Origin: Verrucomicrobia bacterium IMCC26134
GTDB lineage: Bacteria; Verrucomicrobiota; Verrucomicrobiia; Opitutales; Opitutaceae
Length of the DNA: 64,000 bases
Direction of reading: 5' to 3'
Assembly (NCBI GenBank): GCA_000972765.1
Contig: CP011265.1
Span: 3,097,001-3,161,000 of the forward strand
In this document: one piece after another, positions 6,816 to 64,000 of the stretch
Position numbering within the stretch: position 1 is the stretch's first letter
Layout: the number at the start of each line of letters is the position of its first letter
Translations under genes and position numbers: made by a program
The notes under the pieces: generated by a model
Database searches by the model: none
Told to the model about the DNA's origin: nothing
Seen by the model: only the letters and a program-made list of their open reading frames with translations

Positions 6816-6858
6816 CCGTTGACGAAAGCCAGCCCCCGCCGGAGCTATCCACCCCCGC

Positions 6859-8943
6859 GTGACTATCACCCATCACATCAGAAACAGCCGACGGACTACC
6901 GCCTTTATCGTCGCCACCGCCCTGCTCCTCTACTGGCTGATGGCGATCAGTGTCTCTCCTCGCGTGGGCGTCACAGCGGACGAGGTGGTGCATTTCACGG
7001 GAGGTTATAGCTACTGGAAATTCAACGACTACAGGCTACATCCTGAAAACGGCACCCTGCCGATGCGGCTGGCCGCGCTGCCCCTGGTCTTCGCCGACCT
7101 GCACTTTCCTTCTCTGCAGGATCCGCAATGGATAGCATCAAAGGTGAACAACGTGGGGGAGTTGTTCTTTTTTCACCAAGGCAACGACGTCTCGAAAATA
7201 CTCCTCTATGGCCGCATGATGCTCGCCCTCGCGGGAGCGGTCACCATCTGGCTGACATGGCGCTGGTCGCGCGGGCTCTTCGGACCACGCGCGGGCTGGC
7301 TGGCCCTCGGGCTCACGGTATTTTGCCCCGCTTTGCTGACCCATGGCGGACTCATCACCTCAGACATCACCATGACTGCCTGCATGATCGGAGCCCTTTC
7401 CGCCTGCTGGCTAGTGCTACATCGCGCCACTTGGGGGAGACTCCTCCTCGCGGGTATCGTCTGCGGACTGGCTTTTTTATCAAAGATGTCGGGGGTGATT
7501 CTCATCCCGCTGCTCGCTACGATGGTCTTGTTAAGGTGCCTGCGCGGCACTCCGCTTATCCTGGTCTTAGGCGAGAGCGTGCACTGGCTGCGTGGTCGCT
7601 TAGCTGTGCTGGCCGGTTCAATCGCGCTCATGACAATCGTAGCGGCGGGCAGTTTGATTGTTCTCTGGGGTGGCTACGGCTTCCGTTATAGCGGATTCAA
7701 CCTGGAAAAATCCACGACGACCGGATACTATCTGGACTGGGACGTGGTGCTGAACAAAACCTCCATTCCGTATAGATCCGACACCAGCCTGAACGATCTG
7801 CTCCCCAGCCGGCCAATCCCCCATCCCACGTCGATCGACCACTTGGTGGAGTGGCTGCGCGACCGCCGCCTGCTGCCCGAGGCCTACCTCTGGGGCTTCG
7901 CGCACACCCATAAATTCTCCCTTTACCGGCCCGCTTTTTTGCTCGGCCAATACCGGACCACCGGTTGGCCGAGCTTCTTCCCCCTCGCCTTCCTGCTCAA
8001 GACCACCCTGCCCGCCCTCGTGCTTTTTACCACGGGTATAGCCGCGCTGGTTTGGACCGCCCGGAGACGCTCGCTTGCCGACCCAGCGATCGGCGCAACG
8101 GCACCATTAAAAATAGGGAGCATCTGCCCCCGCTGGCTCTACCGCGGCTCTCCTCTCCTGCTTTTCTTTGTCCTCTACTGGCTCATGGCGGTGAACATGC
8201 ATCTCAATATCGGGCACCGGCACATACTGCCAACCTACCCTGTGTTTTACATTCTGGCCTCGGCGTCGGTGCTCTGGCTGGGTCGTTACAAAAACCGAAT
8301 GGTCACGCTAGGTCTGGTAGCGACCCTGGGATTGCACGCGCTGGACTCGATCAACGCCCGGCCTTTTTACATTTCCTATTTTCAGCCACTGGTAGGCGGC
8401 GCCGCCAAGGGCTACCACTACTTGGTCGACAGCTCCTACGACTGGGGCCAGGGACTACCCGATCTGGCCGTGTGGCTGAAGTCAGACCAGCGGCGCTCTG
8501 ATCCAGCACCCGTTCACCTCTGCTACTTTGGCGCCGATTCCCCCCGCGAACGAGGCCTCGATGTAATCCGGTTCGGCGATGATTTGGCTGATTTTGGCCC
8601 CAGAACCTATCCCGCCCAGCTCAACGCCGGATGGTATGCCATCAGTGCGACTCACTTGATGCAGGTTTACGCCCCCACACGAGGCGATTGGACTGCTGCT
8701 CACGAAGAAAAATATCAGAAAATACTAGCCCGACTGGCCCACGCTAAACCAAACGCACAACGCACAGGCAAGGAGTCCACCAGCGTCCTGGAAGACTGCA
8801 GCGACCTAGAAATCATCCAAACGACCCGGATCTGCCACTTTCTACGAGACCGCCCCCCCCTGGAAGTCGTCGGTGGCTCCATCCTTATTTTCAAACTCAG
8901 CGCTGCCGAAATTAAGGCGGCGCTTTACGCCCCTATCCAGTAG
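6859..8943 (+). CDS. GT-C membrane glycosyltransferase, paralogue 1 of 3
   Basis: This is a 694-residue protein with a GTG start. An N-terminal helix is followed by a first periplasmic loop with VTADEVVHF, where D41-E42 is in the position of the catalytic acidic pair of PMT/ArnT-type GT-C enzymes, then [15 protein letters not shown]. Multiple helices follow, with [12 protein letters not shown] near residue 450 and a distinctive C-terminal segment ([13 protein letters not shown], about 524-536). Very similar signatures occur in the proteins at 16342 and 18432. GT-C enzymes of this kind use polyprenyl-phosphate sugars as donors and act outside the membrane. The acceptor, glycan or protein, is unknown. 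Confidence 0.77.
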
Positions 8944-27234: not shown

Positions 27235-27399
27235 ATGACCACTCCATCTAATCCTTCCCCTAAAAAATGCGGCTGCGGCAAGACGGCAAACCCTCAAGGT
27301 AACTGCGACGGCTCGCACGCAAAGCCAGACCCCAAAAAATGCGGTTGTGGTAAGACCAAAGACCCCAAAGGCCATTGCGATGGCTCGCACGCTAAGTGA
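27235..27399 (+). CDS. 54-residue mini-protein with two CDGSH-type iron-sulfur motifs
   Basis: The frame from ATG 27235 to TGA 27397-27399 encodes 54 residues. It contains two near-identical segments, KKCGCGKTANPQGNCDGSH and KKCGCGKTKDPKGHCDGSH. Each keeps the three cysteines and one histidine that ligate a 2Fe-2S cluster in CDGSH proteins, with the CxC, the Thr and CDGSH. The spacing between CxC and CDGSH is one residue longer than in mitoNEET. The two halves are linked by about nine residues. It is a stand-alone gene between unrelated neighbours. Role is unknown; redox or iron-sulfur trafficking is typical of the family. Confidence 0.78.
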   Translation: MTTPSNPSPKKCGCGKTANPQGNCDGSHAKPDPKKCGCGKTKDPKGHCDGSHAK

Positions 27400-44612: not shown

Positions 44613-44726
44613 CTATTTTTCCGCCCCCCCGCCACCGGAGTGGGACCGCCGCTTGGCCGACGAGGCACGCACATCCTTGAGCACGCGGTCGGCCTCTTTA
44701 CATTCGACAGTCCCTTGCAGCTGCAT
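44613..44726 (-). CDS. Possible 37-residue small ORF on the minus strand
   Basis: The frame from an ATG at 44726 (or at 44750) to 44613 encodes a charged peptide (VECKEADRVLKDVRASSAKRR, ending in glycine and serine). Its helical, charged pattern looks more protein-like than random GC-rich shadow frames. Its start would lie within 30 bases of the divergent cyclophilin gene start, and I do not recognise it. It may be spurious. Confidence 0.2.
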   Translation of the reverse strand: MQLQGTVECKEADRVLKDVRASSAKRRSHSGGGGAEK

Positions 44727-44754
44727 GCAATCACTGCTAAGTATCCGCATTCCC

Positions 44755-47313
44755 ATGAAACGCGTTCTCCTCCTTTTTACCCTGCTGACCGTTGGTGCCG
44801 CCCGCCTGCTCGCCCAGTCCACCGTCCCCGCCGTCGCATCGCCGATCGCAGCGCAAGCCCTCACCGTTGGCGCTCCTTCCGCCGAGTTTGACCTCGCCAC
44901 CGTATTCACCGTCCCGGACGTCAGCGGCCAGATCGTCCAGTTCGATACCACCTTCGGCAAATTCAACGTCGAGACCCTCGCCACCGCCGCCCCCGACCAC
45001 GTCGCCAACTTCCTCGCCTACGTAAACGCCGGCGACTACTCCAACACCTTCTTCCACCGCGTTAACGGATTGGGAACCAGCAGCCCGGCCATTCTTCAGG
45101 GTGGCGGCTACTACGCCACCCTGCCCGGTGCACCAACCGTCACCAAACGCACCGCCGTTAACTTGGAATACAACCTGCCCAACGCCCGCGGCACCCTCGC
45201 CGCCGCCCGCACCAGCGACGTCAACTCGGCCACCAGCGAATGGTTTTTCAATACCCAAGACAACTCCACCACCCTCGGCCCACTCAACGCCTCCGGCTAC
45301 AGCGTCTTCGCCCGCGTCCTCGGCACCGGCATGACCATCGTGGATACGATCGCCGAAAACCCGCTGTATAATCTCGGCGGAGCCTTCACCGAGACCCCCC
45401 TCCGCGACATCGCCGTAGGCCAGACCACCCTGCTCGTCTCCAATTTTATCACCGTCAACAGCACCACCGTCATCCCCCTTTTCCCCGCCGCCACCGGCCA
45501 GATCGCCGTCGTCACCTTTACCGTCTCCAGCGACCACCCCAACGTCGCCACCGCCACCCTCGTGGGCGGCCACACCCTCTCCATCAACCCCGTCGGCGCC
45601 GGCTCCGCCAACCTTACCCTCACCGCCACCGATACCAACGGCAACACCGCCCAGACCACCGCCGCCGTCACCGTCGTCGCCACCACCGCGCCCGACCGCC
45701 GCGATGTCCTCACCCTCGGCACTGCCTCCACCCTCCCTCTCGCCGTCTCCGGCTACAGCACCTGGACCACCCCGGGGACGCTGCCAGCCTGGCTCTCCCT
45801 CTCCTCCACCACCGGCGCCCTCACTGGCACCCCGCCAGCCGACACCCCCGCGTTCACCTTCCTCCTCAACGCCCGAGACGCCAACTCCGCCGTCTTCGGC
45901 CAGAACGTCACCCTGCTCTTCAAGGCTCCCGACTCCCCCGACCGCGCCTTCTCCCCCGCCGACTTCACCGAGGCCGTCACCGGCCGCACCCTCGCCGGTC
46001 TCTCCTTCACCAGCGCCACCGCCTTCACCGACCCGTCCGAGCCTGTCGGCAGCGCCTTCCGCAGCGGCACCTGGACCTACTCCTCTCCCTCCGCCAATCA
46101 GGCCCGCATCACCCTCACCTATCCCGCCGCCAACCCCGTCTCCCGCGAGGGCATCGACCTCTACCATCGCGGCCCCCTCGCCACCGACGCCCTTCGCTAC
46201 GACCTCGACAACAGCGACGTCGCCAGCGGCCACCAGCTCACCTCCGCCGACTTCCGTTCCACCTTTCTCCCCCGCGAAATCGCCGCCTCCGTCGTCGATT
46301 CCCGCAACGTCAGCCTCACTTGGCGTGACGAGGCCTGGGCTGATGGCTACAACGTTTACCGCACCGGCTCCTCCACCCCACCCGCCGCCGGCGCCACGCC
46401 CTTGAACGGCGCCACCGCCCTCACCTCCGCCGCCTACACCGACGTCGCCCCCGCGCGCGGCTCCGCCCATTATTACTGGATCACCGCCGTTCGCGCCGGA
46501 CAGGAAACCACCCCCTTAGCCGCCGCCCCCACCTCGATTATCGTTCGCGACGTTCCGCTCGTGCTCAGCCAGCCGACCACCGTCATGGCCGCACTCAACG
46601 CCACGCAACTCTTCGATGTCACCACCTTCGGCACCGACCTGACCTACCAATGGTATTTCAAGGGCAAACCCGTCTCCAAAGCCACCAACGAAGACCTCAG
46701 CGTGCGCGCCACCGCCGCCGCCGCTGGTGTTTACAGCCTCAAGATCACCGACAACACCGGCGACACCGCCCAGGCCGATATCACGCTCGTCGTCGTCAGC
46801 ACTCCCCGCCTCACCGTCCAGCCCGCCACCAAGCGCACCCTCGGCCTCGGAGGCTCCGCCACCTTCTCCGTCTCCGCCACCGGCCTCGCCCTCGATTACC
46901 AATGGTTCCTCAACGGGCAGTCCCTCGCAGGCGAAACCAGCGCCACCCTCGTCCTCGCCAACGTCACCACCGCCGCCCAAGGCAAATACACCGTCCGCGT
47001 CCACAACATCGCGGGCAGCGTCACCAGTCGCGGCACCGCCCTCACCGTGCTCATCCCGCCCTCTGTCCAGAGCGTCAGCGGCCCCGCCACCGTAGTGACC
47101 GGCCAGCCCTTCACCCTCACCGCCGCCGCGAGTGGGTCCGCCCGCCTCGCCTACCAATGGAGCCTCAACGGCACCGCCATCCCCAAAGCCACCAAGCCCA
47201 CTTACGCCGTCAAAAAAGCCGCCGCCGCCAATTCCGGCTCCTACACCGTCACCGTCACCAACTCCGTCGGCGCCACCACCAGCGTTCCCCGCGTGCTGGA
47301 AGTCACCCCGTAA
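44755..47313 (+). CDS. Secreted cyclophilin-type peptidyl-prolyl isomerase with Ig-like domains
   Basis: This is an 852-residue protein with a signal peptide (residues 1-21, ending RLLAQ). Residues about 60-215 are a cyclophilin domain: GKFNVETLATAAPDHVANF, YSNTFFHRVNG, ILQGGGYYATLPG, SEWFFNTQDN. After a BIg/cadherin-like stretch and a putative Ig/fibronectin part (TWRDEAWADGYNVYRTG), the C-terminus holds three Ig-like repeats ending LEVTP, each with a QWYF/QWFL/QWSL core. Cyclophilins catalyse proline isomerisation and help fold exported proteins. The ATG at 44755 gives the signal peptide. It probably works in the periplasm or at the surface. Confidence 0.9.
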   Translation: MKRVLLLFTLLTVGAARLLAQSTVPAVASPIAAQALTVGAPSAEFDLATVFTVPDVSGQIVQFDTTFGKFNVETLATAAPDHVANFLAYVNAGDYSNTFFHRVNGLGTSSPAILQGGGYYATLPGAPTVTKRTAVNLEYNLPNARGTLAAARTSDVNSATSEWFFNTQDNSTTLGPLNASGYSVFARVLGTGMTIVDTIAENPLYNLGGAFTETPLRDIAVGQTTLLVSNFITVNSTTVIPLFPAATGQIAVVTFTVSSDHPNVATATLVGGHTLSINPVGAGSANLTLTATDTNGNTAQTTAAVTVVATTAPDRRDVLTLGTASTLPLAVSGYSTWTTPGTLPAWLSLSSTTGALTGTPPADTPAFTFLLNARDANSAVFGQNVTLLFKAPDSPDRAFSPADFTEAVTGRTLAGLSFTSATAFTDPSEPVGSAFRSGTWTYSSPSANQARITLTYPAANPVSREGIDLYHRGPLATDALRYDLDNSDVASGHQLTSADFRSTFLPREIAASVVDSRNVSLTWRDEAWADGYNVYRTGSSTPPAAGATPLNGATALTSAAYTDVAPARGSAHYYWITAVRAGQETTPLAAAPTSIIVRDVPLVLSQPTTVMAALNATQLFDVTTFGTDLTYQWYFKGKPVSKATNEDLSVRATAAAAGVYSLKITDNTGDTAQADITLVVVSTPRLTVQPATKRTLGLGGSATFSVSATGLALDYQWFLNGQSLAGETSATLVLANVTTAAQGKYTVRVHNIAGSVTSRGTALTVLIPPSVQSVSGPATVVTGQPFTLTAAASGSARLAYQWSLNGTAIPKATKPTYAVKKAAAANSGSYTVTVTNSVGATTSVPRVLEVTP

Positions 47314-51834: not shown

Positions 51835-53946
51835 TCATTGGCCCTCGAAAGCGTTAAGCACCATGCCCGGCGTAAGGAGCTCAGGCAACGGAAGCGGCTC
51901 CGTCACGCCAGCGCGGTATACCAGGTTAAACGGCACGGCGCTCCGGTTCCAGCGGGCCAACTCGGCGGTGATGAGAGCATCCCGGTTGGTCCAATCTCCA
52001 CGCAAGATAACCACGCCCAGTTCCTTGAACCGGCGGCGCACTTCAGCCGAACCAAACACAACTTTTTTGTTCGCCTGGCAGGTTGCGCACCAGCGCGCGG
52101 TGAAATCGACGTAAACCGGCTTTCCGGCCGCCTGCAATTCAGCGACCCGTGCCGGGCTCCACGTCTCCCACTCGAGATCGCCGGCTGATTTCGCCCGCGG
52201 CCAGCCCAGAAAAACACCGGCGCCAAGAAGGAGCAGGCCGCCAAAAACACCGATGCGACGGGCCAGCGGCTTGGCGCCGGGAGTGGCGTAGCGCCCGTAT
52301 AACCAGGTCGCCATCGCGATGAGCGTGAGACCGAAGATCACCATCAGCGAACCGCTTTCACTGGTTTGCGCCGAAAGAACCCATATCAGGTATCCGGCTG
52401 TGGCATACAATGGAAATGCCATCGCCTGCTTGAACGTCTCCATCCAGGCGCCCGGCCGGGGCAGCAGACGCACGGCTTGCGGAAAAACAGAAAGTAACAG
52501 ATAGGGCGTCGACAATCCGATCGCGATCGTCGTGAACACCATGAACGCCTGCACCATCGGCATCACCAGCGCCACACCCAGAGCCGGGGCAAGAAACGGC
52601 GCGCTGCACGGCGTCGCCACCACGGTGGCAAGCACGCCGGTGAAGAACGAGCCGCGGTAGCCTGACTGCATTTGCAACCCCGCTCCAGCACCCATGACGC
52701 TCCCCCCGAACTCGCACACGCCGCTCATGCTGAGGGCGAAGACGAGCATCACGGCGGCGAGGCCGAAGACAAAGGGAGGCGATTGAAGCTGGAAACCCCA
52801 GCCAAGTTCGCCTCCTCCGGCGCGCAGCACCGCGAGGGCTGCCGCGAGCGTCCAGAAGGACGAGAGCACACCGGCGGTGAACGTCAGACCGTGGAGCGTG
52901 ATCTTTTTTCGATCGGCGCCCGCTTGATTCACGAAGCCCATGATTTTAAGGCCCAGCACAGGGAATACGCAGGGCATCAGGTTGAGTATCAATCCACCGA
53001 TAAACGCCAGCGGCAGCGTGGCGAGCAAACCGGCCGGAGCAGCAGCGGTATGCTGCGTGGCGGCGGCGGTTGCGGGCGTAAGCGGCACATCGATCTGAAA
53101 TGCCGGAACTTGCTTTGCCGCCGAGTCGTCCACCCGTGCCGAAGCCGAGGCGCGTAAAACGCCGAGCAATCGTCCCGAGGCGGGAAGCGCAGTGCCGGCC
53201 GGATGCACCAGGGTGAATGCGAGTGTGCCATCCGTTTCGATTTTTAAAACCTGCGGCTGGTCGTAAGCCACGGTCTCATCTTGCGGGAAAAACCACCACG
53301 CCGGCGCTTCACCCTCCTTGGATCGAGGCAAGCCCGACACACGCAAGGTCACGGTTTCACCGGAAAACGTAGCCGAGACCTTGAGGTTTTGATCGATTAC
53401 AGGCAAGGCCGCGAGGCTGCGCGCGATAGAGGCACCGTGCACAGGATCTGGCTCCGCATTTGCTACAGAAACCGGCAACGTGAGCGCGACCGGCGATTCG
53501 CCGGGCACACAGGTGTCATGACACATCAGCCAGGCCGCCTGCGCTTGCAGCGTCACACTGGATCCGGCGGCCAGCCCCGCGGGAGGCGTGAGCGTGACAG
53601 GCAGATACACCACTCCATCATAACCCTGTCCGGTGACATGCCCGGTCGCGTCAACGATGGTCTTGGGCGCCGGCCAGCGGAGCTCCGAGGCAGTCCAGCC
53701 TGCGGGCAGCGTCCAAGTGAGCGTGGTGGGATAGCCGGTGCCGGCATTTATCCAGTAGGTATGCCAGCCTGCCTGATGCTCGAGCTTTAAGGCCACGGTC
53801 AGAGGGTGTCCGGCCTCAACCGCAACCGTGGCCGCGACCAGTGAGGCTTTTACCTGCGCGTGCGTGGTCAGGTGACTGAGCGCGAGTAAGCCGATGACAA
53901 ACGCTACGCCGGCGCGGATACACCTCTGGATATTGGTGGGGAACAT
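51835..53946 (-). CDS. DsbD/ScsB-like transmembrane thiol-disulfide reductase
   Basis: This 703-residue protein has a signal sequence (1-30), an N-terminal DsbD-alpha-like beta-domain with the exported cysteine pair C142 and C146 (MCHDTCVPG), a CcdA-like eight-helix core with conserved cysteines in NLMPCVFPV and VATPCSAPF, and a C-terminal thioredoxin domain with WCATC. This is the arrangement that passes electrons from the cytoplasm to periplasmic thiols. Likely clients are the TlpA-type protein at 62051 and other exported proteins. The ATG at 53946 gives a normal signal peptide; a TTG at 53988 is the alternative. Confidence 0.92.
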   Translation of the reverse strand: MFPTNIQRCIRAGVAFVIGLLALSHLTTHAQVKASLVAATVAVEAGHPLTVALKLEHQAGWHTYWINAGTGYPTTLTWTLPAGWTASELRWPAPKTIVDATGHVTGQGYDGVVYLPVTLTPPAGLAAGSSVTLQAQAAWLMCHDTCVPGESPVALTLPVSVANAEPDPVHGASIARSLAALPVIDQNLKVSATFSGETVTLRVSGLPRSKEGEAPAWWFFPQDETVAYDQPQVLKIETDGTLAFTLVHPAGTALPASGRLLGVLRASASARVDDSAAKQVPAFQIDVPLTPATAAATQHTAAAPAGLLATLPLAFIGGLILNLMPCVFPVLGLKIMGFVNQAGADRKKITLHGLTFTAGVLSSFWTLAAALAVLRAGGGELGWGFQLQSPPFVFGLAAVMLVFALSMSGVCEFGGSVMGAGAGLQMQSGYRGSFFTGVLATVVATPCSAPFLAPALGVALVMPMVQAFMVFTTIAIGLSTPYLLLSVFPQAVRLLPRPGAWMETFKQAMAFPLYATAGYLIWVLSAQTSESGSLMVIFGLTLIAMATWLYGRYATPGAKPLARRIGVFGGLLLLGAGVFLGWPRAKSAGDLEWETWSPARVAELQAAGKPVYVDFTARWCATCQANKKVVFGSAEVRRRFKELGVVILRGDWTNRDALITAELARWNRSAVPFNLVYRAGVTEPLPLPELLTPGMVLNAFEGQ

Positions 53947-54003
53947 ATTATTCAAGATGACTAAGGTTGCTAAAAAGGGACGGAGCAAACGCCGGCACGT
54001 GAC

Positions 54004-57000
54004 TTACGGAGAGGTGACGCGCAGGCGCAGGTAACGATGAGGCCCGGTATTTACCGCCACTGTATCAGTATAAGTGTAGGTCTGGCCGATGGTCAAACCG
54101 GTGAGCATGGTGCTGGTCCAAGTCGTCAAATCAGCGCTCACCTCAACCTGATATATGACGTCGGAAACGGCGGGCGTCAGACTAAGCGTGAGGTAGTCGG
54201 AATTGCCGTTTCTTACGGTGCTAATTTGCGGCGATGGCGCGCTACTCGCTGAGCCAGGGTTGCCGCCGAGTGCGTATTCAAGCAAGTTGCTCACGCCGTC
54301 ACCATCCGGATCAGCGTTGTCGGCTGCACTGCCGGTGTTCGCACGGGTGCCTAGATTGACCTGTCGCCAAACTTCAAGCGGTGTCATGACCTGCAAAAGG
54401 ACACGTCGGCTGGGGCTACCGGCAGGAGCTGCGTCATTGTATATCATCACTCTAAAGTATCCTTGGTCACTCAACTGAACATCGGTGAAAACAAGTGTCG
54501 CAGAGGTTTTTCCAGGCATCAAGACGTCGTCTTTAAACCACTGATAAGTTGGCGCGGGAGTGCCGGTCGCCACGACAGTGAAGCTTACATTCGAGCCAAG
54601 AATCACCGACTGCGAGCGAGGTTGCGTAGTGAAAACGGGAACGGTCGACACCGACCCCACCGTCAGCGTCGCAGCGGTGGAGGATACGCCGGCAGGCGCA
54701 GCGGAGTTCGTGGCGACGGCGAAGAAATAGGAACCCGAGTCGCTTGCCTGCACGTTAGCGATGAAAAGGGTATTTCGTGTCTCGCCGGCAAGAAGGATCG
54801 TTGCGGTTGAGCCCGAGGATAGGAGATCTGCTCTGAACCATTGCAGCGTCGGCGTCGGCGTGCCGCTCGCGGCGGCGCTAAAAGTCACGTTCGTTCCGGC
54901 CGTCACGGTCTGCGTGGCGGGTTGCGTCGTGAACGCTGGCGCGACCGGCGCCGGGTTCACCGTCAGCGTCGCAGCGGTGGAGGATACGCCAGAGGGCGCG
55001 GCGGAGTTCGTCGCGACCACCGTGTAACTGCCGGCGGCGGAGGCTTGCACCGCCGTCAGCGTGAGCGTCGCAGTGGTCTGGCCGTTGATCGCCACGCTGT
55101 CCTTGAACCATTGTAGCGTCGGCGTCGGCGTGCCGCTCGCGGAGGCGCTAAAAGTCACGTTCGTTCCGGCCGTCACGGTTTGCGTGGCGGGTTGCGTCGT
55201 GAACGCTGGCGCGACCGGCGCCGGGTTCACCGTCAGCGTCGCAGCGGTGGAGGATACGCCAGAAGGCGCGGCGGAGTTTGTCGCGACCACCGTGTAACTG
55301 CCGACGGCGGAAGCTTGCACCGCCGTGAGCGTGAGCGTCGCAGTAGTCTGGCCGTTGATCGCCACGCTGTCCTTGAACCATTGCAGCGTCGGCGTCGGCG
55401 TCCCGCTCGCAGCGGCGCTAAAAGTCACGTTCGTTCCGGCCGTCACGGTCTGCGTGGCGGGTTGCGTCGTGAACGCTGGCGCGACCGGCGCCGGGTTCAC
55501 CGTCAGCGTCGCAGCGGTGGAGGATACGCCAGAGGGCGCGGCGGAGTTCGTCGCGACCACCGTGTAACTGCCGGCGGCGGAGGCTTGCACCGCCGTGAGC
55601 GTGAGCGTCGCGGTGGTCTGGCCGTTGATCGCCACGCTGTCCTTGAACCATTGCAGCGTCGGCGTCGGTGTGCCGCTCGCGGCGGCGCTAAAGGTCACGT
55701 TCGTTCCGGCGGTCACGGTCTGCGTGGCGGGTTGCGTCGTGAACGCTGGCGCGACCGGCGCCGGGTTCACCGTCAGCGTCGCAGCGGTGGAGGATACGCC
55801 AGAAGGCGCGGCGGAGTTTGTCGCGACCACCGTGTAACTGCCGGCGGCGGAGGCTTGCACCGCCGTCAGCGTGAGCGTCGCAGTGGTCTGGCCGTTGATC
55901 GCCACGCTGTCCTTGAACCATTGCAGCGTCGGCGTCGGTGTGCCGCTCACAGCGGCGCTAAAAGTCACGTTCGTTCCGGCGGTCACGGTCTGCGTGGCGG
56001 GTTGCGTCGTGAACGCTGGCGCGACCGGCGCCGGGTTCACCGTCAGCGTGGCAGCGGTGGAGGATACGCCAGAGGGCGCGGCGGAGTTTGTCGCGACCAC
56101 CGTGTAACTGCCGGCATTGACTGCCTGGACGTTAGTCAATGTCAGCGTGCCAGTAGTCTGGCCGTTGATCGCCACGCTGTCCTTGAACCATTGCAGCGTC
56201 GGCGTCGGCGTGCCGCTCGCGGCGGCGCTAAAAGTCACGTTCGTTCCGGCCGTCACGGTTTGCGTGGCGGGTTGCGTCGTGAACGCTGGCGCGACCGGCG
56301 CCGGGTTCACCGTCAGCGTCGCAGCGGTGGAGGATACGCCAGAGGGCGCGGCGGAGTTTGTCGCGACCACCGTGTAACTGCCGGCATTGACTGCCTGGAC
56401 ATTGGTCAAAGTCAGCGTGCCAGTAGTCTGCCCGTTGAGCGCGGTCGTCCCGAGATACCACTGCAGCGTCGGCGTCGGCGTGCCGCTCGCGGCGGCGCTA
56501 AAAGTCACGTTCGTTCCGGCCGTCACGGTTTGCGTGGCGGGTTGCGTCGTGAACGCTGGCGCGACCGGCGCCGGGTTCACCGTCAGCGTCGCAGCGGTGG
56601 AGGATACGCCAGAAGGCGCGGCGGAGTTTGTCGCGACCACCGTGTAACTGCCGGCGGCGGAGGCTTGCACCGCCGTCAGCGTGAGCGTCGCAGTAGTCTG
56701 GCCGTTGATCGCCACGCTGTCCTTGAACCATTGCAGCGTCGGCGTCGGCGTGCCGCTCGCGGCGGCGCTAAAAGTCACGTTCGTTCCGGCCGTCACGGTT
56801 TGCGTGACGGGTTGCGTCGTGAACGCTGGCGCGACCGGCGCCGGGTTCACCGTCAGCGTCGCAGCGGTGGAGGATACGCCAGAGGGCGCGGCGGAGTTTG
56901 TCGCGACCACCGTGTAACTGCCGGCGGCGGAGGCTTGCACCGCCGTCAGCGTGAGCGTCGCGGTAGTCTGGCCGTTGATCGCCACGCTGTCCTTGAACCA

Positions 57001-60000
57001 TTGCAGCGTCGGCGTCGGCGTGCCGCTCGCGGCGGCGCTAAAAGTCACGTTCGTTCCGGCCGTCACGGTCTGCGTGGCGGGTTGCGTCGTGAACGCTGGC
57101 GCGACCGGCGCCGGGTTCACCGTCAGCGTCGCAGCGGTGGAGGATACGCCAGAAGGCGCGGCGGAGTTCGTCGCGACCACCGTGTAACTGCCGGCATTGA
57201 CTGCCTGGACGTTAGTCAATGTCAGCGTGCCAGTAGTCTGGCCGTTGATCGCCACGCTGTCCTTGAACCATTGCAGCGTCGGCGTCGGTGTGCCGCTCGC
57301 AGCGGCGCTAAAAGTCACGTTCGTTCCGGCGGTCACGGTCTGCGTGGCGGGTTGCGTCGTGAACTCTGGCGCGACCGGCGCCGGGTTCACCGTCAGCGTG
57401 GCAGCGGTGGAGGATACGCCAGAAGGCGCGGCGGAGTTCGTCGCGACCACCGTGTAACTGCCGGCATTGACTGCCTGGACGTTAGTCAATGTCAGCGTGC
57501 CAGTAGTTTTCCCAGCGAGCGCGGTCGTCCCGAGATACCACTGGAACGTCGGCGTCGGCGTGCCGCTCACAGCGGCGCTAAAAGTCACGTTCGTTCCGGC
57601 GGTCACGGTCTGCGTGGCGGGTTGCGTCGTGAACGCTGGCGCGACCGGCGCGGGGTTCACCGTCAGCGTGGCAGCGGTGGAGGATACGCCAGAGGCCGCG
57701 GCGGAGTTCGTCGCGACCACCGTGTAACTGCCGGCGGCGGAGGCTTGCACCGCCGTGAGCGTGAGCGTCGCGGTAGTCTGGCCGTTGATCGCCACGCTGT
57801 CCTTGAACCATTGCAGCGTCGGCGTCGGCGTGCCGCTCGCGGAGGCGCTAAAAGTCACGTTCGTTCCGGCCGTCACGGTCTGCGTGGCGGGTTGCGTCGT
57901 GAACGCTGGCGCGACCGGCGCCGGGTTCACCGTCAGCGTCGCAGCGGTGGAGGATACGCCAGAAGGCGCGGCGGAGTTTGTCGCGACCACCGTGTAACTG
58001 CCGGCGGCGGAGGCTTGCACCGCCGTCAGCGTGAGCGTCGCAGTGGTCTGGCCGTTGATCGCCACGCTGTCCTTGAACCATTGCAGCGTCGGCGTCGGCG
58101 TGCCGCTCGCGGCGGCGCTAAAGGTCACGTTCGTTCCGGCGGTCACGGTTTGCGTGGCGGGTTGCGTCGTGAACGTTGGCGCGATCGGCGCGGGGTTCAC
58201 CGTCAGCGTCGCAGCGGTGGAGGATACGCCAGAAGGCGCGGCGGAGTTTGTCGCGACCACCGTGTAACTGCCGGCATTGACTGCCTGGACATTGGTCAAA
58301 GTCAGCGTGCCAGTAGTCTGCCCGTTGAGCGCGGTCGTCCCGAGATACCACTGCAGCGTCGGCGTCGGCGTGCCGCTCGCGGCGGCGCTAAAAGTCACGT
58401 TCGTTCCGGCCGTCACGGTTTGCGTGGCGGGTTGCGTCGTGAACGCTGGCGCGACCGGCGCCGGGTTCACCGTCAGCGTCGCAGCGGTGGAGGATACGCC
58501 AGAAGGCGCGGCGGAGTTTGTCGCGACCACCGTGTAACTGCCGGCGGCGGAGGCTTGCACCGCCGTCAGCGTGAGCGTCGCAGTAGTCTGGCCGTTGATC
58601 GCCACGCTGTCCTTGAACCATTGCAGCGTCGGCGTCGGCGTGCCGCTCGCGGCGGCGCTAAAAGTCACGTTCGTTCCGGCCGTCACGGTTTGCGTGACGG
58701 GTTGCGTCGTGAACGCTGGCGCGACCGGCGCCGGGTTCACCGTCAGCGTCGCAGCGGTGGAGGATACGCCAGAGGGCGCGGCGGAGTTTGTCGCGACCAC
58801 CGTGTAACTGCCGGCGGCGGAGGCTTGCACCGCCGTCAGCGTGAGCGTCGCGGTAGTCTGGCCGTTGATCGCCACGCTGTCCTTGAACCATTGCAGCGTC
58901 GGCGTCGGCGTGCCGCTCGCGGCGGCGCTAAAAGTCACGTTCGTTCCGGCCGTCACGGTCTGCGTGGCGGGTTGCGTCGTGAACGCTGGCGCGACCGGCG
59001 CCGGGTTCACCGTCAGCGTCGCAGCGGTGGAGGATACGCCAGAAGGCGCGGCGGAGTTCGTCGCGACCACCGTGTAACTGCCGGCATTGACTGCCTGGAC
59101 GTTAGTCAATGTCAGCGTGCCAGTAGTTTTCCCAGCGAGCGCGGTCGTCCCGAGATACCACTGGAACGTCGGCGTCGGCGTGCCGCTCACAGCGGCGCTA
59201 AAAGTCACGTTCGTTCCGGCGGTCACGGTCTGCGTGGCGGGTTGCGTCGTGAACGCTGGCGCGACCGGCGCGGGGTTCACCGTCAGCGTGGCAGCGGTGG
59301 AGGATACGCCAGAGGCCGCGGCGGAGTTCGTCGCGACCACCGTGTAACTGCCGGCGGCGGAGGCTTGCACCGCCGTGAGCGTGAGCGTCGCGGTAGTCTG
59401 GCCGTTGATCGCCACGCTGTCCTTGAACCATTGCAGCGTCGGCGTCGGCGTGCCGCTCGCGGAGGCGCTAAAAGTCACGTTCGTTCCGGCCGTCACGGTC
59501 TGCGTGGCGGGTTGCGTCGTGAACGCTGGCGCGACCGGCGCCGGGTTCACCGTCAGCGTCGCAGCGGTGGAGGATACGCCAGAAGGCGCGGCGGAGTTTG
59601 TCGCGACCACCGTGTAACTGCCGGCGGCGGAGGCTTGCACCGCCGTCAGCGTGAGCGTCGCAGTGGTCTGGCCGTTGATCGCCACGCTGTCCTTGAACCA
59701 TTGCAGCGTCGGCGTCGGCGTGCCGCTCGCGGCGGCGCTAAAGGTCACGTTCGTTCCGGCGGTCACGGTTTGCGTGGCGGGTTGCGTCGTGAACGTTGGC
59801 GCGATCGGCGCGGGGTTCACCGTCAGCGTCGCAGCGGTGGAGGATACGCCAGAAGGCGCGGCGGAGTTTGTCGCGACCACCGTGTAACTGCCGGCATTGA
59901 CTGCCTGGACATTGGTCAAAGTCAGCGTGCCAGTAGTCTGCCCGTTGAGCGCGGTCGTCCCGAGATACCACTGCAGCGTCGGCGTCGGCGTGCCGCTCGC

Positions 60001-61719
60001 GGAGGCGCTAAAAGTCACGTTCGTTCCGGCCGTCACGGTTTGCGTGGCGGGTTGCGTCGTGAACGCTGGCGCGACCGGCGCCGGGTTCACCGTCAGCGTC
60101 GCAGCGGTGGAGGATACGCCAGAAGGCGCGGCGGAGTTTGTCGCGACCACCGTGTAACTGCCGGCGGCGGAGGCTTGCACCGCCGTCAGCGTGAGCGTCG
60201 CAGTAGTCTGGCCGTTGATCGCCACGCTGTCCTTGAACCATTGCAGCGTCGGCGTCGGCGTGCCGCTCGCGGCGGCGCTAAAAGTCACGTTCGTTCCGGC
60301 CGTCACGGTTTGCGTGACGGGTTGCGTCGTGAACGCTGGCGCGACCGGCGCCGGGTTCACCGTCAGCGTCGCAGCGGTGGAGGATACGCCAGAAGGCGCG
60401 GCGGAGTTCGTCGCGACCACCGTGTAACTGCCGGCATTGACTGCCTGGACGTTAGTCAATGTCAGCGTGCCAGTAGTCTGGCCGTTGATCGCCACGCTGT
60501 CCTTGAACCATTGCAGCGTCGGCGTCGGCGTGCCGCTCGCGGCGGCGCTAAAGGTCACGTTCGTTCCGGCGGTCACGGTCTGCGTGGCGGGTTGCGTCGT
60601 GAACGCTGGCGCGACCGGCGCCGGGTTCACCGTCAGCGTCGCAGCGGTGGAGGATACGCCAGAAGGCGCGGCGGAGTTGGTCGCGACCACCGTGTAACTG
60701 CCGGCATTGACTGCCTGGACGTTAGTCAATGTCAGCGTGCCAGTAGTCTGGCCGTTGATCGCCACGCTGTCCTTGAACCATTGCAGCGTCGGCGTCGGTG
60801 TGCCGCTCGCAGCGGCGCTAAAAGTCACGTTCGTTCCGGCGGTCACGGTTTGCGTGGCGGGTTGCGTCATGAACGCTGGCGCGACCGGCGCCGGGTTCAC
60901 CGTCAGCGTGGCAGCGGTGGAGGATACGCCAGAGGGCGCGGCGGAGTTCGTCGCGACCACCGTGTAACTGCCGGCATTGACTGCCTGGACGTTAGTCAAT
61001 GTCAGCGTGCCAGTAGTTTTCCCAGTGAGCGCGTTCGTCCCGAGATACCACTGGAGAGTCGGCGTCGGCGTGCCGCTCGCGGAGGCGCTAAAAGTCACGT
61101 TCGTTCCGGCCGTCACGGTTTGCGTGGCGGGTTGCGTCGTGAACGCTGGCGCGACTGGCGTGACTCCTCCAGTCACGCTCACAATGCAGGTGATGCCGGC
61201 ATTGTTACCGGAAGCGTTAAGGGAATCGTAGGCTCTGATACTGAGGGTTTGACTGCCAGAGACAGTCGGAGTTCCGGACAATGTAACCTTAAGTCCATTG
61301 AAAACAAATCCTCCGGTGATGGCAGTGCCTCCGGTGACGCTTATACCCGCTGGCAGCGTGCCGGTGACTTTCCATGAACGGATAGTGCTGGGTGCGCCAG
61401 TGCCGTTGAAGGCGAGGCTGAAAGCGGAGTTATTCGCAATCGTGCTGGTGAAAGTCGTGTTGGCACCGCCGCTGGCGGGAGTTACGGTGGCAGGGCTGAC
61501 GGCGGTAGCATTAAAAACAGTTGCGCCAGCAACCGAGTTGTAAGCACCCAGTGCGACAAGGGCGAAGGCTGACTTCAGCACCTCTCCGGATTGAAGCCCG
61601 AAGCCAGGGGACTCGCTCACCATCATGCGCAACACAGGGGTGCGCTGAAGTAACAGCATCAAGATACCCGCAGGGGTGTTGAACCAACGCAGACGATAGA
61701 GCAGATTCGAAAATATCAT
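54004..61719 (-). CDS. Giant secreted Ig-repeat protein (2571 aa)
   Basis: The N-terminus has a long unusual leader: about 45 residues (LLLQRTPVLRMM) before a hydrophobic segment (VLKSAFALVALGAYNSVAGA). Residues about 60-190 form a putative Ig/PKD-type region. Then come 25 Ig-like repeats of about 90 residues with the core FTTQPATQTVTAG, GTPTPTLQW, GSYTVVATNSAA and STAATLTVNPAP, none with cysteine. The last one or two are diverged. The C-terminus has a DPDGDGVSNLLEYALGG calcium-binding-type segment and a final beta-domain. The protein is probably a surface adhesin or matrix protein. The number of repeats may vary between strains. Confidence 0.87.
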   Translation of the reverse strand: MIFSNLLYRLRWFNTPAGILMLLLQRTPVLRMMVSESPGFGLQSGEVLKSAFALVALGAYNSVAGATVFNATAVSPATVTPASGGANTTFTSTIANNSAFSLAFNGTGAPSTIRSWKVTGTLPAGISVTGGTAITGGFVFNGLKVTLSGTPTVSGSQTLSIRAYDSLNASGNNAGITCIVSVTGGVTPVAPAFTTQPATQTVTAGTNVTFSASASGTPTPTLQWYLGTNALTGKTTGTLTLTNVQAVNAGSYTVVATNSAAPSGVSSTAATLTVNPAPVAPAFMTQPATQTVTAGTNVTFSAAASGTPTPTLQWFKDSVAINGQTTGTLTLTNVQAVNAGSYTVVATNSAAPSGVSSTAATLTVNPAPVAPAFTTQPATQTVTAGTNVTFSAAASGTPTPTLQWFKDSVAINGQTTGTLTLTNVQAVNAGSYTVVATNSAAPSGVSSTAATLTVNPAPVAPAFTTQPVTQTVTAGTNVTFSAAASGTPTPTLQWFKDSVAINGQTTATLTLTAVQASAAGSYTVVATNSAAPSGVSSTAATLTVNPAPVAPAFTTQPATQTVTAGTNVTFSASASGTPTPTLQWYLGTTALNGQTTGTLTLTNVQAVNAGSYTVVATNSAAPSGVSSTAATLTVNPAPIAPTFTTQPATQTVTAGTNVTFSAAASGTPTPTLQWFKDSVAINGQTTATLTLTAVQASAAGSYTVVATNSAAPSGVSSTAATLTVNPAPVAPAFTTQPATQTVTAGTNVTFSASASGTPTPTLQWFKDSVAINGQTTATLTLTAVQASAAGSYTVVATNSAAASGVSSTAATLTVNPAPVAPAFTTQPATQTVTAGTNVTFSAAVSGTPTPTFQWYLGTTALAGKTTGTLTLTNVQAVNAGSYTVVATNSAAPSGVSSTAATLTVNPAPVAPAFTTQPATQTVTAGTNVTFSAAASGTPTPTLQWFKDSVAINGQTTATLTLTAVQASAAGSYTVVATNSAAPSGVSSTAATLTVNPAPVAPAFTTQPVTQTVTAGTNVTFSAAASGTPTPTLQWFKDSVAINGQTTATLTLTAVQASAAGSYTVVATNSAAPSGVSSTAATLTVNPAPVAPAFTTQPATQTVTAGTNVTFSAAASGTPTPTLQWYLGTTALNGQTTGTLTLTNVQAVNAGSYTVVATNSAAPSGVSSTAATLTVNPAPIAPTFTTQPATQTVTAGTNVTFSAAASGTPTPTLQWFKDSVAINGQTTATLTLTAVQASAAGSYTVVATNSAAPSGVSSTAATLTVNPAPVAPAFTTQPATQTVTAGTNVTFSASASGTPTPTLQWFKDSVAINGQTTATLTLTAVQASAAGSYTVVATNSAAASGVSSTAATLTVNPAPVAPAFTTQPATQTVTAGTNVTFSAAVSGTPTPTFQWYLGTTALAGKTTGTLTLTNVQAVNAGSYTVVATNSAAPSGVSSTAATLTVNPAPVAPEFTTQPATQTVTAGTNVTFSAAASGTPTPTLQWFKDSVAINGQTTGTLTLTNVQAVNAGSYTVVATNSAAPSGVSSTAATLTVNPAPVAPAFTTQPATQTVTAGTNVTFSAAASGTPTPTLQWFKDSVAINGQTTATLTLTAVQASAAGSYTVVATNSAAPSGVSSTAATLTVNPAPVAPAFTTQPVTQTVTAGTNVTFSAAASGTPTPTLQWFKDSVAINGQTTATLTLTAVQASAAGSYTVVATNSAAPSGVSSTAATLTVNPAPVAPAFTTQPATQTVTAGTNVTFSAAASGTPTPTLQWYLGTTALNGQTTGTLTLTNVQAVNAGSYTVVATNSAAPSGVSSTAATLTVNPAPVAPAFTTQPATQTVTAGTNVTFSAAASGTPTPTLQWFKDSVAINGQTTGTLTLTNVQAVNAGSYTVVATNSAAPSGVSSTAATLTVNPAPVAPAFTTQPATQTVTAGTNVTFSAAVSGTPTPTLQWFKDSVAINGQTTATLTLTAVQASAAGSYTVVATNSAAPSGVSSTAATLTVNPAPVAPAFTTQPATQTVTAGTNVTFSAAASGTPTPTLQWFKDSVAINGQTTATLTLTAVQASAAGSYTVVATNSAAPSGVSSTAATLTVNPAPVAPAFTTQPATQTVTAGTNVTFSAAASGTPTPTLQWFKDSVAINGQTTATLTLTAVQASAVGSYTVVATNSAAPSGVSSTAATLTVNPAPVAPAFTTQPATQTVTAGTNVTFSASASGTPTPTLQWFKDSVAINGQTTATLTLTAVQASAAGSYTVVATNSAAPSGVSSTAATLTVNPAPVAPAFTTQPATQTVTAGTNVTFSAAASGTPTPTLQWFRADLLSSGSTATILLAGETRNTLFIANVQASDSGSYFFAVATNSAAPAGVSSTAATLTVGSVSTVPVFTTQPRSQSVILGSNVSFTVVATGTPAPTYQWFKDDVLMPGKTSATLVFTDVQLSDQGYFRVMIYNDAAPAGSPSRRVLLQVMTPLEVWRQVNLGTRANTGSAADNADPDGDGVSNLLEYALGGNPGSASSAPSPQISTVRNGNSDYLTLSLTPAVSDVIYQVEVSADLTTWTSTMLTGLTIGQTYTYTDTVAVNTGPHRYLRLRVTSP
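54841..61155 (-). repeat. Tandem array of near-identical 270-bp units encoding Ig repeats
   Basis: About 23 complete units and one hybrid unit of exactly 270 bp, with no visible insertions or deletions, fill the middle of the giant Ig gene. Most units differ by only a few bases. Higher-order copies exist: 57421-58740 matches 59041-60360 with one base difference, and 56344-57237 matches the sequence 1890 bp further on. The array is in-frame (270 is 90 codons), so gain or loss of a unit keeps the reading frame. Confidence 0.95.
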
Positions 61720-61814: not shown

Positions 61815-62051
61815 TTAATTACAACCGCAGCCACTGCCACCGACGCCTCGACCGCCGGAAGAGGCCTCGCGCGAGAAATAAATGTGCTCGCTCATCGCGG
61901 TATGCAGCGGATCGCGATCAGAGCGCATGGTGTAGTCCGCCAGTGTGGCGCGCTCCCACGGTTGAACACGCACGAGTTTAGTCGTGGAACAACCGCCGGC
62001 GCAGGCGCAGGCGACGAGAATGGAAGGTAAAATCAGGACGGAAGGTTTCAT
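61815..62051 (-). CDS. DUF4266 small lipoprotein
   Basis: This is a 78-residue protein with a lipoprotein signal ending ACAGGC (Cys 21). The mature part has the DUF4266 pattern VQPWERATLADYTM, DPLHTAMSEHIYFSREASSGGRGVGG, ending in GCGCN. The Gly-Cys tail could bind metal. The family occurs with DUF3570, ApbE and TlpA genes, as here. Its ATG overlaps the TlpA stop by one base (TAATG). Function is unknown. Confidence 0.85.
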   Translation of the reverse strand: MKPSVLILPSILVACACAGGCSTTKLVRVQPWERATLADYTMRSDRDPLHTAMSEHIYFSREASSGGRGVGGSGCGCN

Positions 62052-62551
62052 TATTTTTCCTCAATAAGTTTAATAATCTCGGCGCGGAGCTTCTGACCAT
62101 CGGCGTCGCCGTGGAATCCGCTGTGCATGAGGCGGAGCACGCCATGACGGTCGAGCAAGTAGCACGTCGGCATGGCGGGTGGTTGAATAGCCGCGACCAT
62201 CTTTTGCCCGCTATCGCGGACGGTGGCAAAGGCAGGAGCGAAGCGTTTGATGAACTCATCGAAGGGCGCGGCTTTTTTGTCCACGCTGACCGCGATCAGA
62301 GTGAAGCCAAGAGGCGCCAGTTCGGTTTGCAGCGCGCTGTAGAAGGGAAATGACGCCTTGCAAGGCGCGCACCAAGTCGCCCAGAAATCGATCAAGACCA
62401 CTCGCCCCTCGTGCGGCGGAAGCGATCCTTCGAGTGAAAAGGTCGCGAGCTCAGGAAAAGGCGCACCGACCTTGACCTCGGCAGAAGCGACAAAAGCGCC
62501 CAGGACGAGACCCAGCAGGCAAGCCAACGATGTATTTTTAGGAGACCACAT
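62051..62551 (-). CDS. TlpA-like periplasmic thioredoxin-fold protein
   Basis: This is a 166-residue protein with a signal peptide (cleavage after about VASAE), then VLIDFWATWCAPCKASFPF with the redox pair at 61 and 64, the conserved FTLIAVSVDKK strand and the cis-proline in AMPTCYLLDRHG. It should act as a thiol reductase outside the cytoplasm, perhaps fed by the DsbD-like protein at 51835. It overlaps the ApbE gene by 14 bases and the DUF4266 gene by one base, showing a coupled operon. Confidence 0.92.
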   Translation of the reverse strand: MWSPKNTSLACLLGLVLGAFVASAEVKVGAPFPELATFSLEGSLPPHEGRVVLIDFWATWCAPCKASFPFYSALQTELAPLGFTLIAVSVDKKAAPFDEFIKRFAPAFATVRDSGQKMVAAIQPPAMPTCYLLDRHGVLRLMHSGFHGDADGQKLRAEIIKLIEEK

Positions 62552-63524
62552 ATTTGAAAAATCCTCTGGATTGATGAACCGAATGATCGGTGACGATGCG
62601 GGCTTCCGCGCCCATGATCTCGGAGGCCAGATTTAATCCGGATTCCGGCCCGAGAATAAAAATTGCCGTGGAAAGCGCGCCTGCAAGCAGACAGGACGGC
62701 GCGACTACGGTGACCTGCCGGCACCCATTTGCGACCGGCCAGCCAGTGGCCGGATTGACGATGTGACCAAAGCGCTTACCTTCGATCGAGAAGCCACGCA
62801 GGTAATCACCTGAGCATGCCACGCCGACATTTGTAGCCGCGAGACTGCCTTTGCAGGGACCGGCGGGGTCGGACGGGTTCTCGAGTCCGATGTGCCAGCC
62901 GGGTTTACCCGGAGGAGCACCGAAGGCCATCAGGTCATGACCGAAGTCCACCAGGATATCATCGAGACCATGGGCACGGGCGAGGGCGGCAACCGCATCG
63001 ACCGCGTATTCCTTACCCCAGCCGCCGAAGTCCAGCGCCATGCCGGCCTCGGGCAGGCGAACCTTGCCGTGGGCACGCTGCACCTTTGCCCAGCCGACAA
63101 GACGAAGCGCGGAGGAAATCTCGGCAGCGGAAGGGATGCGTGGAACCGCTGCCTTGTAATCCCATAGCCTCAGCACCGGCGTGGCGGTCACGTCCATGAC
63201 CCCCTTGGTCATGAAGTGCAGAGAAGCACAAAAGTTAAGCATGTGCTCCATTTCGCTATCCACCGGAATCCAGACGCCGGCTCCGGCAGCGGCGTTTATC
63301 CGGCTGACGAGACTATCGGGACGGAAACGCGAATACCTGGCTTCGAACGCGGCCACCCAGGCGACGGCGGCGGACTCAAAGCGGCGGGCGCGCCCGCCAT
63401 CCTCACACACAAACTGCAGCTCGCAAATTGTGCCAAGGGCGGGCCAGCGACATTTATGCAGCTCCGCACCTGAGGCGCGGGATGCAACCCTGGGAGCCGG
63501 CATGGACTCGACGCTGGTGCTCAT
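62538..63524 (-). CDS. apbE: FAD:protein FMN transferase (ApbE family)
   Basis: This is a 328-residue protein with ApbE motifs: ARYSRFRPDSLVSRINAAAG near 60-80, FMTKGVMDVTATPVLRLW, ALDFGGWGKEYAVDA, VDFGHDLMAFG, WHIGLENP, and FGHIVNPATGWPV in place of HIIDPRTG. The family moves FMN from FAD to a Ser/Thr of exported proteins. No protein with the usual flavinylation motif ([ST]GA[ST]) was found nearby, so the target is unclear. No obvious N-terminal signal peptide is seen. The gene starts 6 bases after the DUF3570 stop. Confidence 0.92.
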   Translation of the reverse strand: MSTSVESMPAPRVASRASGAELHKCRWPALGTICELQFVCEDGGRARRFESAAVAWVAAFEARYSRFRPDSLVSRINAAAGAGVWIPVDSEMEHMLNFCASLHFMTKGVMDVTATPVLRLWDYKAAVPRIPSAAEISSALRLVGWAKVQRAHGKVRLPEAGMALDFGGWGKEYAVDAVAALARAHGLDDILVDFGHDLMAFGAPPGKPGWHIGLENPSDPAGPCKGSLAATNVGVACSGDYLRGFSIEGKRFGHIVNPATGWPVANGCRQVTVVAPSCLLAGALSTAIFILGPESGLNLASEIMGAEARIVTDHSVHQSRGFFKYVVS

Positions 63525-63529
63525 GCCGA

Positions 63530-64000
63530 TCAGCGCGAGAGTTTAAAGCCGACCGTGAAGACGTTGGCGCTGGAATAGGCGGACTGTGGCGTGTCCCCGT
63601 CGAGACCATGCATCAGGTATCGTTCGTAGGCGAAATCCAGCGAACAATGATCGTTGATGATGTAGCCCAGCTTCAACCCCAGATTAACGGTCTCCAACTT
63701 GGAGAGACGATAGTCGGAAGAGTAAAACGGGCCTTTTCCGGTGCCGGTCTCAAAGAGTGGATCGTAGGACGTCACGACGCCGGCGGCGTCGAGATTTGTA
63801 TAATAGAAGTCGGCGGCGGACTGCCGCGAATACCGAAGGACAGGCTCAATCAAAAAGTGCGTTCCAGCGCGCTGCACCCACTTCAACTCCACCGTATGGC
63901 TTTTGATGCCGAAGGTGTCCTGATAATATCGATACGAACCGTCGAGTGCGGCATCCAGCTTCTCAAAGTGCCGGTTGGTGCCGAGAAAAACGCTGACCTT
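63530..64000 (-). CDS. DUF3570 family protein, 5' end cut by the window edge
   Basis: The open frame reaches base 64000, so only the last 156 residues are seen. They show alternating aromatic beta-strands (AALDGSYRYYQDTFG, HFLIEPVLRYSRQSAADFYY, LSKLETVNLGLKLGYI, SANVFTVGFKLSR) and end with a terminal aromatic/positive residue, as in outer-membrane beta-barrels of the DUF3570 family. It is the most upstream visible gene of the redox cluster. Its role is not established. Confidence 0.83.
   Translation of the reverse strand, partial: KVSVFLGTNRHFEKLDAALDGSYRYYQDTFGIKSHTVELKWVQRAGTHFLIEPVLRYSRQSAADFYYTNLDAAGVVTSYDPLFETGTGKGPFYSSDYRLSKLETVNLGLKLGYIINDHCSLDFAYERYLMHGLDGDTPQSAYSSANVFTVGFKLSR

Follow-up and report, generated by a model that had tools for sequence, protein, structure and literature searches.

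A homogenised immunoglobulin-domain repeat array encoded within a DsbD-type flavinylation gene cluster of Verrucomicrobia bacterium IMCC26134

The window analysed here is a stretch of 64,000 nucleotides (GenBank accession number CP011265.1, positions 3,097,001 to 3,161,000) from Verrucomicrobia bacterium IMCC26134, a member of the Opitutaceae. It includes six consecutive minus-strand genes, in the order DUF3570, ApbE, thioredoxin-like, DUF4266, an immunoglobulin (Ig) domain protein and DsbD. The features of this region are as follows.

63530-64000, minus strand: DUF3570 protein, extending past the window edge into locus L071 (Pfam PF12094, 219 bits on L071:3533-4789; motif DTIAGATP)
62538-63524, minus strand: ApbE flavin transferase (Pfam PF02424, 234 bits)
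62051-62551, minus strand: thioredoxin-like protein (Pfam Redoxin/Thioredoxin_8)
61815-62051, minus strand: DUF4266 protein with a C-terminal CGCN (Pfam PF14086, 80.4 bits)
54004-61719, minus strand: Ig-array gene (ORF and translation, 2571 aa; Pfam Ig families)
61519-61719, minus strand: leader, residues 1-67, with LQRTP (24-28) and NSVAGAT (61-67) (conserved columns in 110 leaders)
61150-61518, minus strand: predicted N-terminal beta-sandwich head, residues 68-190 (AlphaFold2 model; weak Ig-like PDB matches)
54940-61149, minus strand: 23 Ig units, each exactly 90 aa or 270 bp (TRF and unit comparison)
57401-58773, minus strand: block copied at +1620 bp (59021-60393), one mismatch in 1373 bp
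56345-57237, minus strand: block copied at +1890 bp (58235-59127), identical over 893 bp
54640-54939, minus strand: unit 24, 100 aa, the first ~106 nt in the homogenised zone and the remainder diverged
54391-54639, minus strand: unit 25, a diverged Ig domain (Pfam and unit comparison)
54007-54390, minus strand: C-terminal module, DPDGDGVSNLLEYALG plus a beta-sandwich (matches in own genome; model)
51835-53988, minus strand: DsbD (Pfam; start codon as in the ORF list)

The array is enclosed entirely by the single minus-strand ORF that runs from 61719 to 54004, and TRF places it at 54834-61160, with a period of 270, 23.4 copies and 0 % indels. Pfam Ig_3 matches 25 stretches of the 2571-aa protein. 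Units were delimited by cutting the protein at the motif P-x-F-x-T-Q-P, which yields 23 units at an exact 90-aa spacing, then a 100-aa unit and then a diverged unit. The initial annotation listed 24 in-frame 270-bp Ig units with almost no sequence decay and no indels. The in-frame 270-bp array and the absence of indels are borne out, but there are 23 full homogenised units and a unit 24 that is array-like only in part, and units 1-23 are less uniform than claimed, with 0-49 differences per 270 sites in pairwise comparisons. A 2065-aa antisense ORF over the array (window 55180-61377, plus strand) was judged not to be meaningful, as recoding one unit synonymously at random left an antisense frame without stop codons in 672 of 2000 trials. 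Elsewhere in the window, a second reading frame bearing Ig_3 is found at 46804-47262 (plus strand, in the frame of ORF 44653-47313), and TRF detects a 72-bp tandem repeat of 1.9 copies at 27258-27396, hand-read as coding ...CGCGKTKNPKGNCDGSH..., a product that may resemble CDGSH iron-sulfur proteins.

In the AlphaFold2 model, the head is a beta-sandwich with block pLDDT mostly 88-95 and weak Ig-like PDB matches. An FMN-binding fold was rejected for it, as none was among the PDB matches shown. The C-terminal module (model pLDDT 94.7) has 54 matches in this genome, itself included and some of them within one ORF. It could not be assigned to a known sorting domain, as no family of Pfam or NCBIfam exceeded the cut-off and the PDB gave no match at E≤0.001. 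Four proteins of this genome (L026, L027, L032 and L039) carry C-terminal modules that are almost the same (DPYHTGVPNLL...), which points to recent duplication.

The surrounding genes are closely packed. The ApbE and thioredoxin-like genes overlap by 14 bp, the DUF4266 ATG overlaps the thioredoxin stop codon (TAATG), and the gaps on either side of the Ig gene are 95 bp (to DUF4266, upstream) and 15 bp (to DsbD, downstream). A scan for promoters and terminators found 2 and 7 sites, respectively, against 1.6 and 11.5 expected. All five gene types of the DsbD-type DUF3570 flavinylation cluster described in PMC8238504 adjoin the Ig gene, as identified by Pfam. The available text of that paper leaves the purpose of the cluster uncertain, and reports that DUF3570 is flavinylated by ApbE and that DUF4266 has a conserved CXC. 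The window differs from the cluster as described there in having an Ig-stalk gene inserted between DUF4266 and DsbD, and the terms 'Ig-like', 'adhesin' and 'stalk' are absent from the main text of PMC8238504. A literature search, with subscription papers and preprints outside its scope, found no paper combining flavinylation, ApbE and immunoglobulin, and found the names DUF3570 and DUF4266 in PMC8238504 only. A plasmid search with DUF3570 gave five distant records. By eye, the ApbE proteins of the L071 and L107-L171 clusters have no obvious N-terminal signal peptide, unlike the periplasmic lipoprotein form that is usual according to the available text of PMC12052999.

Among units 1-23, 62 of 270 sites are variable, most of them in aa 31-59, and this region is of two core types, FKDSVAINGQTTATLTLTAVQASAA and YLGTTALNGQTTGTLTLTNVQAVNA. 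Units 2, 3, 15 and 19 are chimeras, joining the first half of one core type to the second half of the other. The 0-49 differences between units reflect these two types and their chimeras inside a homogenised frame. Units 4, 10 and 17 share one sequence, and no difference is found within the pairs 6/12, 7/13 and 9/16, so that identical units recur at offsets of 6, 7 and 13 units. The four-gamete condition is violated by 419 of 1596 informative site pairs. At fourfold-degenerate third positions, the proportion of comparisons that differ is 27.7 % in the core (aa 31-59), compared with 6.7 % for aa 1-30 and 6.0 % for aa 60-90, and the low values in the flanks indicate that silent sites were homogenised there too. 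Two larger block copies had been reported and both were recovered: the 1320-bp pair contains exactly one mismatch and can be extended to 1373 bp before a second is met, and the block of ~890 bp repeated 1890 bp away is an exact match of 893 bp. Unit 24 is array-like for ~106 nt, then falls abruptly to background, and unit 25 is diverged throughout; an edge of this kind inside unit 24 would be expected at the border of a recombining zone.

Intragenic in-register recombination is the best explanation for the likeness of the units, given the recurring identical units, the chimeras, the four-gamete violations, the edge in unit 24 and the homogenised silent sites of the flanks. The earlier proposal of recent homogenisation via unequal crossing-over or gene conversion holds as far as intragenic recombination is concerned, but these two routes are inseparable from one genome. 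The nearest unit lies within the same protein for 24 of the 25 units of the Ig protein, and for 76 of 138 units over all 24 proteins compared (the window's, its relatives' and other Ig proteins of its own genome, after removal of two duplicate loci and of every protein with under three units). From the latter figure, homogenisation is weaker in most of the other arrays.

No Pfam or NCBIfam family was found over the cut-off in the N-terminal 185 residues, and in the terms of these databases the leader (LQRxP ... LGAxHSLAGAT) is an undescribed N-terminal signal. The AlphaFold2 model gives it helices at residues 2-25, 27-35 and 44-64. With the 185-residue query, 139 matches were obtained in 81 of 150 genomes of the family, and in the 110 of these that were fetched the columns conserved at >90 % are L20, L24, Q25, R26, P28, G58, G65, A66 and T/S67. 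DUF4266 matches (96 rows) were found in 83 of the 150 genomes. Both leader and DUF4266 are present in 78 genomes, the leader only in 3, DUF4266 only in 2 and neither in 67, a count that is inflated by the relatedness of the genomes and that took 90 of the 96 DUF4266 rows, the six weak rows omitted (E 4e-4 to 9e-3) adding three DUF4266-only genomes if included. For the same reason of relatedness, the Fisher value for this table exaggerates the association. Within the window's genus, two sampled genomes have both and four have neither. A leader gene is found ≤700 bp downstream on the same strand for 62 of the 90 DUF4266 genes, and ≤12 kb away for 80 of them. Counted from the leader side (n=139), DUF4266 is within 700 bp of 62, within 12 kb of 29 and farther from 2, and 46 are on contigs without DUF4266. 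Named genomes were also scanned, in a way that selected for the AGAT stretch, and gave 66 loci, the titles of which all name Verrucomicrobiota; 38 include DUF4266, in 37 cases within 700 bp upstream. A paralogue in the window's own genome (L086, ORF 6195-7220, minus strand, 342 aa) retains MGAYNSMAGAT, lacks the LQRTP leader and has another domain set.

The genome collections contain one genome per species, and the comparison of stalks is therefore between species. Leader proteins of relatives contain from 1 (L111) to 12 (L082) Ig units. In the closest relative found (L107, an Opitutaceae MAG), the leader is 86 % identical and four neighbouring proteins are 80-91 % identical, and the stalk starts with a different repeat, within which the record ends. 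This piece has no Pfam match; the label MBG-type for it derives only from its likeness to L113, where a similar repeat in many copies is matched by MBG_3 and is followed by two Ig units. As to the far end of the L107 stalk, five stretches of the L107 genome (G150) with C-terminal modules contain no DsbD match, and no C-terminal module was seen by eye around its DsbD. In a species of the same genus as the window (G044), the first Ig unit is cut off by the end of one contig, and a second contig opens within an Ig unit and completes the protein with a LEYA-like module; we infer that the two are parts of one gene. The C-terminus also differs among relatives; that of L074, for example, combines an NHL propeller with GlyGly-CTERM, the signal of the proteins of that name (PMC3237569), at 16.6 bits where the cut-off is 15.5. 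The Ig protein of the window has no NCBIfam match to GlyGly-CTERM at E≤0.1 and ends in a LEYALG-type module. In other genera (L074, L083-L085), leader proteins were observed that have an NHL-type propeller and a hydrophobic C-terminus rich in glycine and ending in an Arg tail. Judged from these sequences, the stalk domain seems to be replaceable between species, which suggests a spacer role.

The protein was compared with known stalk systems. Periscope Proteins, which include SasG, Aap, Rib, Sgo_0707 and CdrA in the available text of PMC8201768, are characterised by a surface anchor that projects an N-terminal functional domain, by tandem repeats of >50 residues that are ≥80 % identical, and by a repeat number that differs from strain to strain. 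Here there are 23 units of 90 aa with ≥82 % identity, a nucleotide figure (≤49 of 270 nt differ) and not a protein identity. The leader and beta-sandwich head and the recurrent C-terminal module, known from sequence and model, may correspond to such an anchored and projected protein, and repeat number is seen to differ here between species. The window protein resembles those of PMC8201768, as far as they are described there, in having a leader at one end and a candidate anchor at the other, and in a DNA identity between repeats that should promote changes in repeat number. It differs from them in its Ig (I-set type) units, the Verrucomicrobiota lineage, the lack of a known ligand-binding head and the redox cluster setting. 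In fibrillar adhesins, stalk domains project a functional part, and I-set is among the stalk domains listed in the available text of PMC8286594, where it is not found with a known adhesive domain; 'Verrucomicrobi' is absent from the main text. From the sequence and the comparison between species, the window protein may be said to work like a Periscope Protein.

The reading we favour, with a probability of roughly 60 %, is a periscope-like secreted stalk that is homogenised by recombination and works with the surrounding redox cluster. The long conserved leader would export the Ig protein, which would have a beta-sandwich head at the N-terminus. Its ~25 Ig domains would form a rod, which from the rise per Ig domain would be in the 100-nm range when fully extended, and the C-terminal module recurring in this genome probably holds the protein at the surface. 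In-register repeat recombination, by unequal crossing-over and/or gene conversion, would homogenise the rod and copy multi-unit blocks, and the length of the rod should consequently vary, also within a species. The Ig protein would be a functional partner of the DUF3570/ApbE/thioredoxin/DUF4266/DsbD redox cluster that surrounds its gene.

That purifying selection alone keeps the units alike is highly improbable. It would fit the 49 of 90 codons that are invariant among the 23 units, but not the homogenised silent sites of the flanks, the recurrence of exact blocks or the chimeras, and silent-site homogenisation together with the copied blocks rules it out as the sole source of unit identity. 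The unit number could be off, because short reads may fail to resolve blocks of >1 kb, and those of 893-1373 bp with 0-1 mismatch are difficult for short reads; contigs of relatives also break within such genes, with 12 of 66 leader ORFs running off their records. However, the genome is one contig and 100 % complete in the genome table, no frame is broken in the array, and the breaks in relatives show that stalks are repetitive there too, making collapse or expansion in assembly quite unlikely. Somewhat less remote, though not probable, is that the homogenised stalk sits in the redox cluster incidentally, with no part in electron transfer and a neighbourhood that was simply inherited. The genomes are related and cannot count as independent cases, both stalk domains and C-termini vary from species to species, and besides the 46 of 139 leader genes on contigs without DUF4266 a further 31 are >700 bp from it. 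Against this, presence and absence of leader and DUF4266 agree in 145 of 150 genomes, and the DUF4266-leader order recurs at loci of Akkermansiaceae and Verrucomicrobiaceae (in the scan that selected for the AGAT stretch).

A different role for the leader was also considered, namely that ApbE acts on the leader protein itself and attaches FMN to Thr67 of a GA[T/S] motif. The substrate motif in the available text of PMC12052999 is D-x-x-[S/T]-G-A-[S/T], with replacement of the Asp having minor effects in one substrate. The leader family shares with these substrates GA[T/S] (GA[ST] in 108 of 110 leaders), an invariant hydroxyl residue (Thr or Ser at position 67 in 110/110) and a nearby ApbE gene, and differs in that position 4 is mostly Ala and position 1 mostly His. 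The strict motif is present in only 2 of 110 leaders, and that of the window reads NSVAGAT. DUF3570 at the same loci reads D-x-I-[A/T/S]-G in the 34 of 37 that are ungapped, with Ala (18), Thr (8) or Ser (8) at position 4; Ala is thus frequent at this position, but the Asp is invariant in DUF3570 and present in few leaders. GA[ST] is as frequent far from DUF4266 (29/29) as adjoining it (59/60), which argues against a tie to the ApbE of the cluster. No FMN-binding fold was among the PDB matches shown for the head, and a signal peptide could not be made out by eye in the ApbE of the window. The model places the motif between the helix at 44-64 and the first strand at 68, and AGA before Thr67 at a helix end would also suit a signal-peptidase site. 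In a control with thioredoxin and DUF3570 signal peptides from the same loci, residues -2 and +1 vary, but the automatic site picking was crude and often wrong, and no weight is placed on this control. It is more likely that a long leader of an unusual kind is processed here than that it is flavinylated. That the leader of the stalk is FLAVINYLATED would be a minority view and is unlikely. Flavinylation of each Ig unit was rejected, as SGAT is frequent in the units of relatives but those of the window have NGQT, AGKT or TGKT there. Were the unlikely case of leader flavinylation to apply, the family would be a new class of ApbE substrates with the relaxed motif [H/D/N]-[S/T]-[L/V]-A-G-A-[T/S], in which Ala takes the place of Ser/Thr, a substitution also present in about half of the partner DUF3570 proteins. 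The window protein would then be a length-adjustable flavin-carrying stalk, whose Ig array, by recombining, would adjust the reach of the redox group, or of its docking complex, from the cell.

Returning to the periscope-like stalk that works with the redox cluster, what is new is that a flavinylation cluster has, as a constant neighbour, an Ig stalk equipped with a leader family of its own. Variable-length stalks have been described as adhesins, and here one is tied by gene order to a cluster for flavin and thiol electron transfer, and this order recurs across several families of the Verrucomicrobiota. Should the partnership hold, the redox cluster would probably operate at the cell surface or beyond it.
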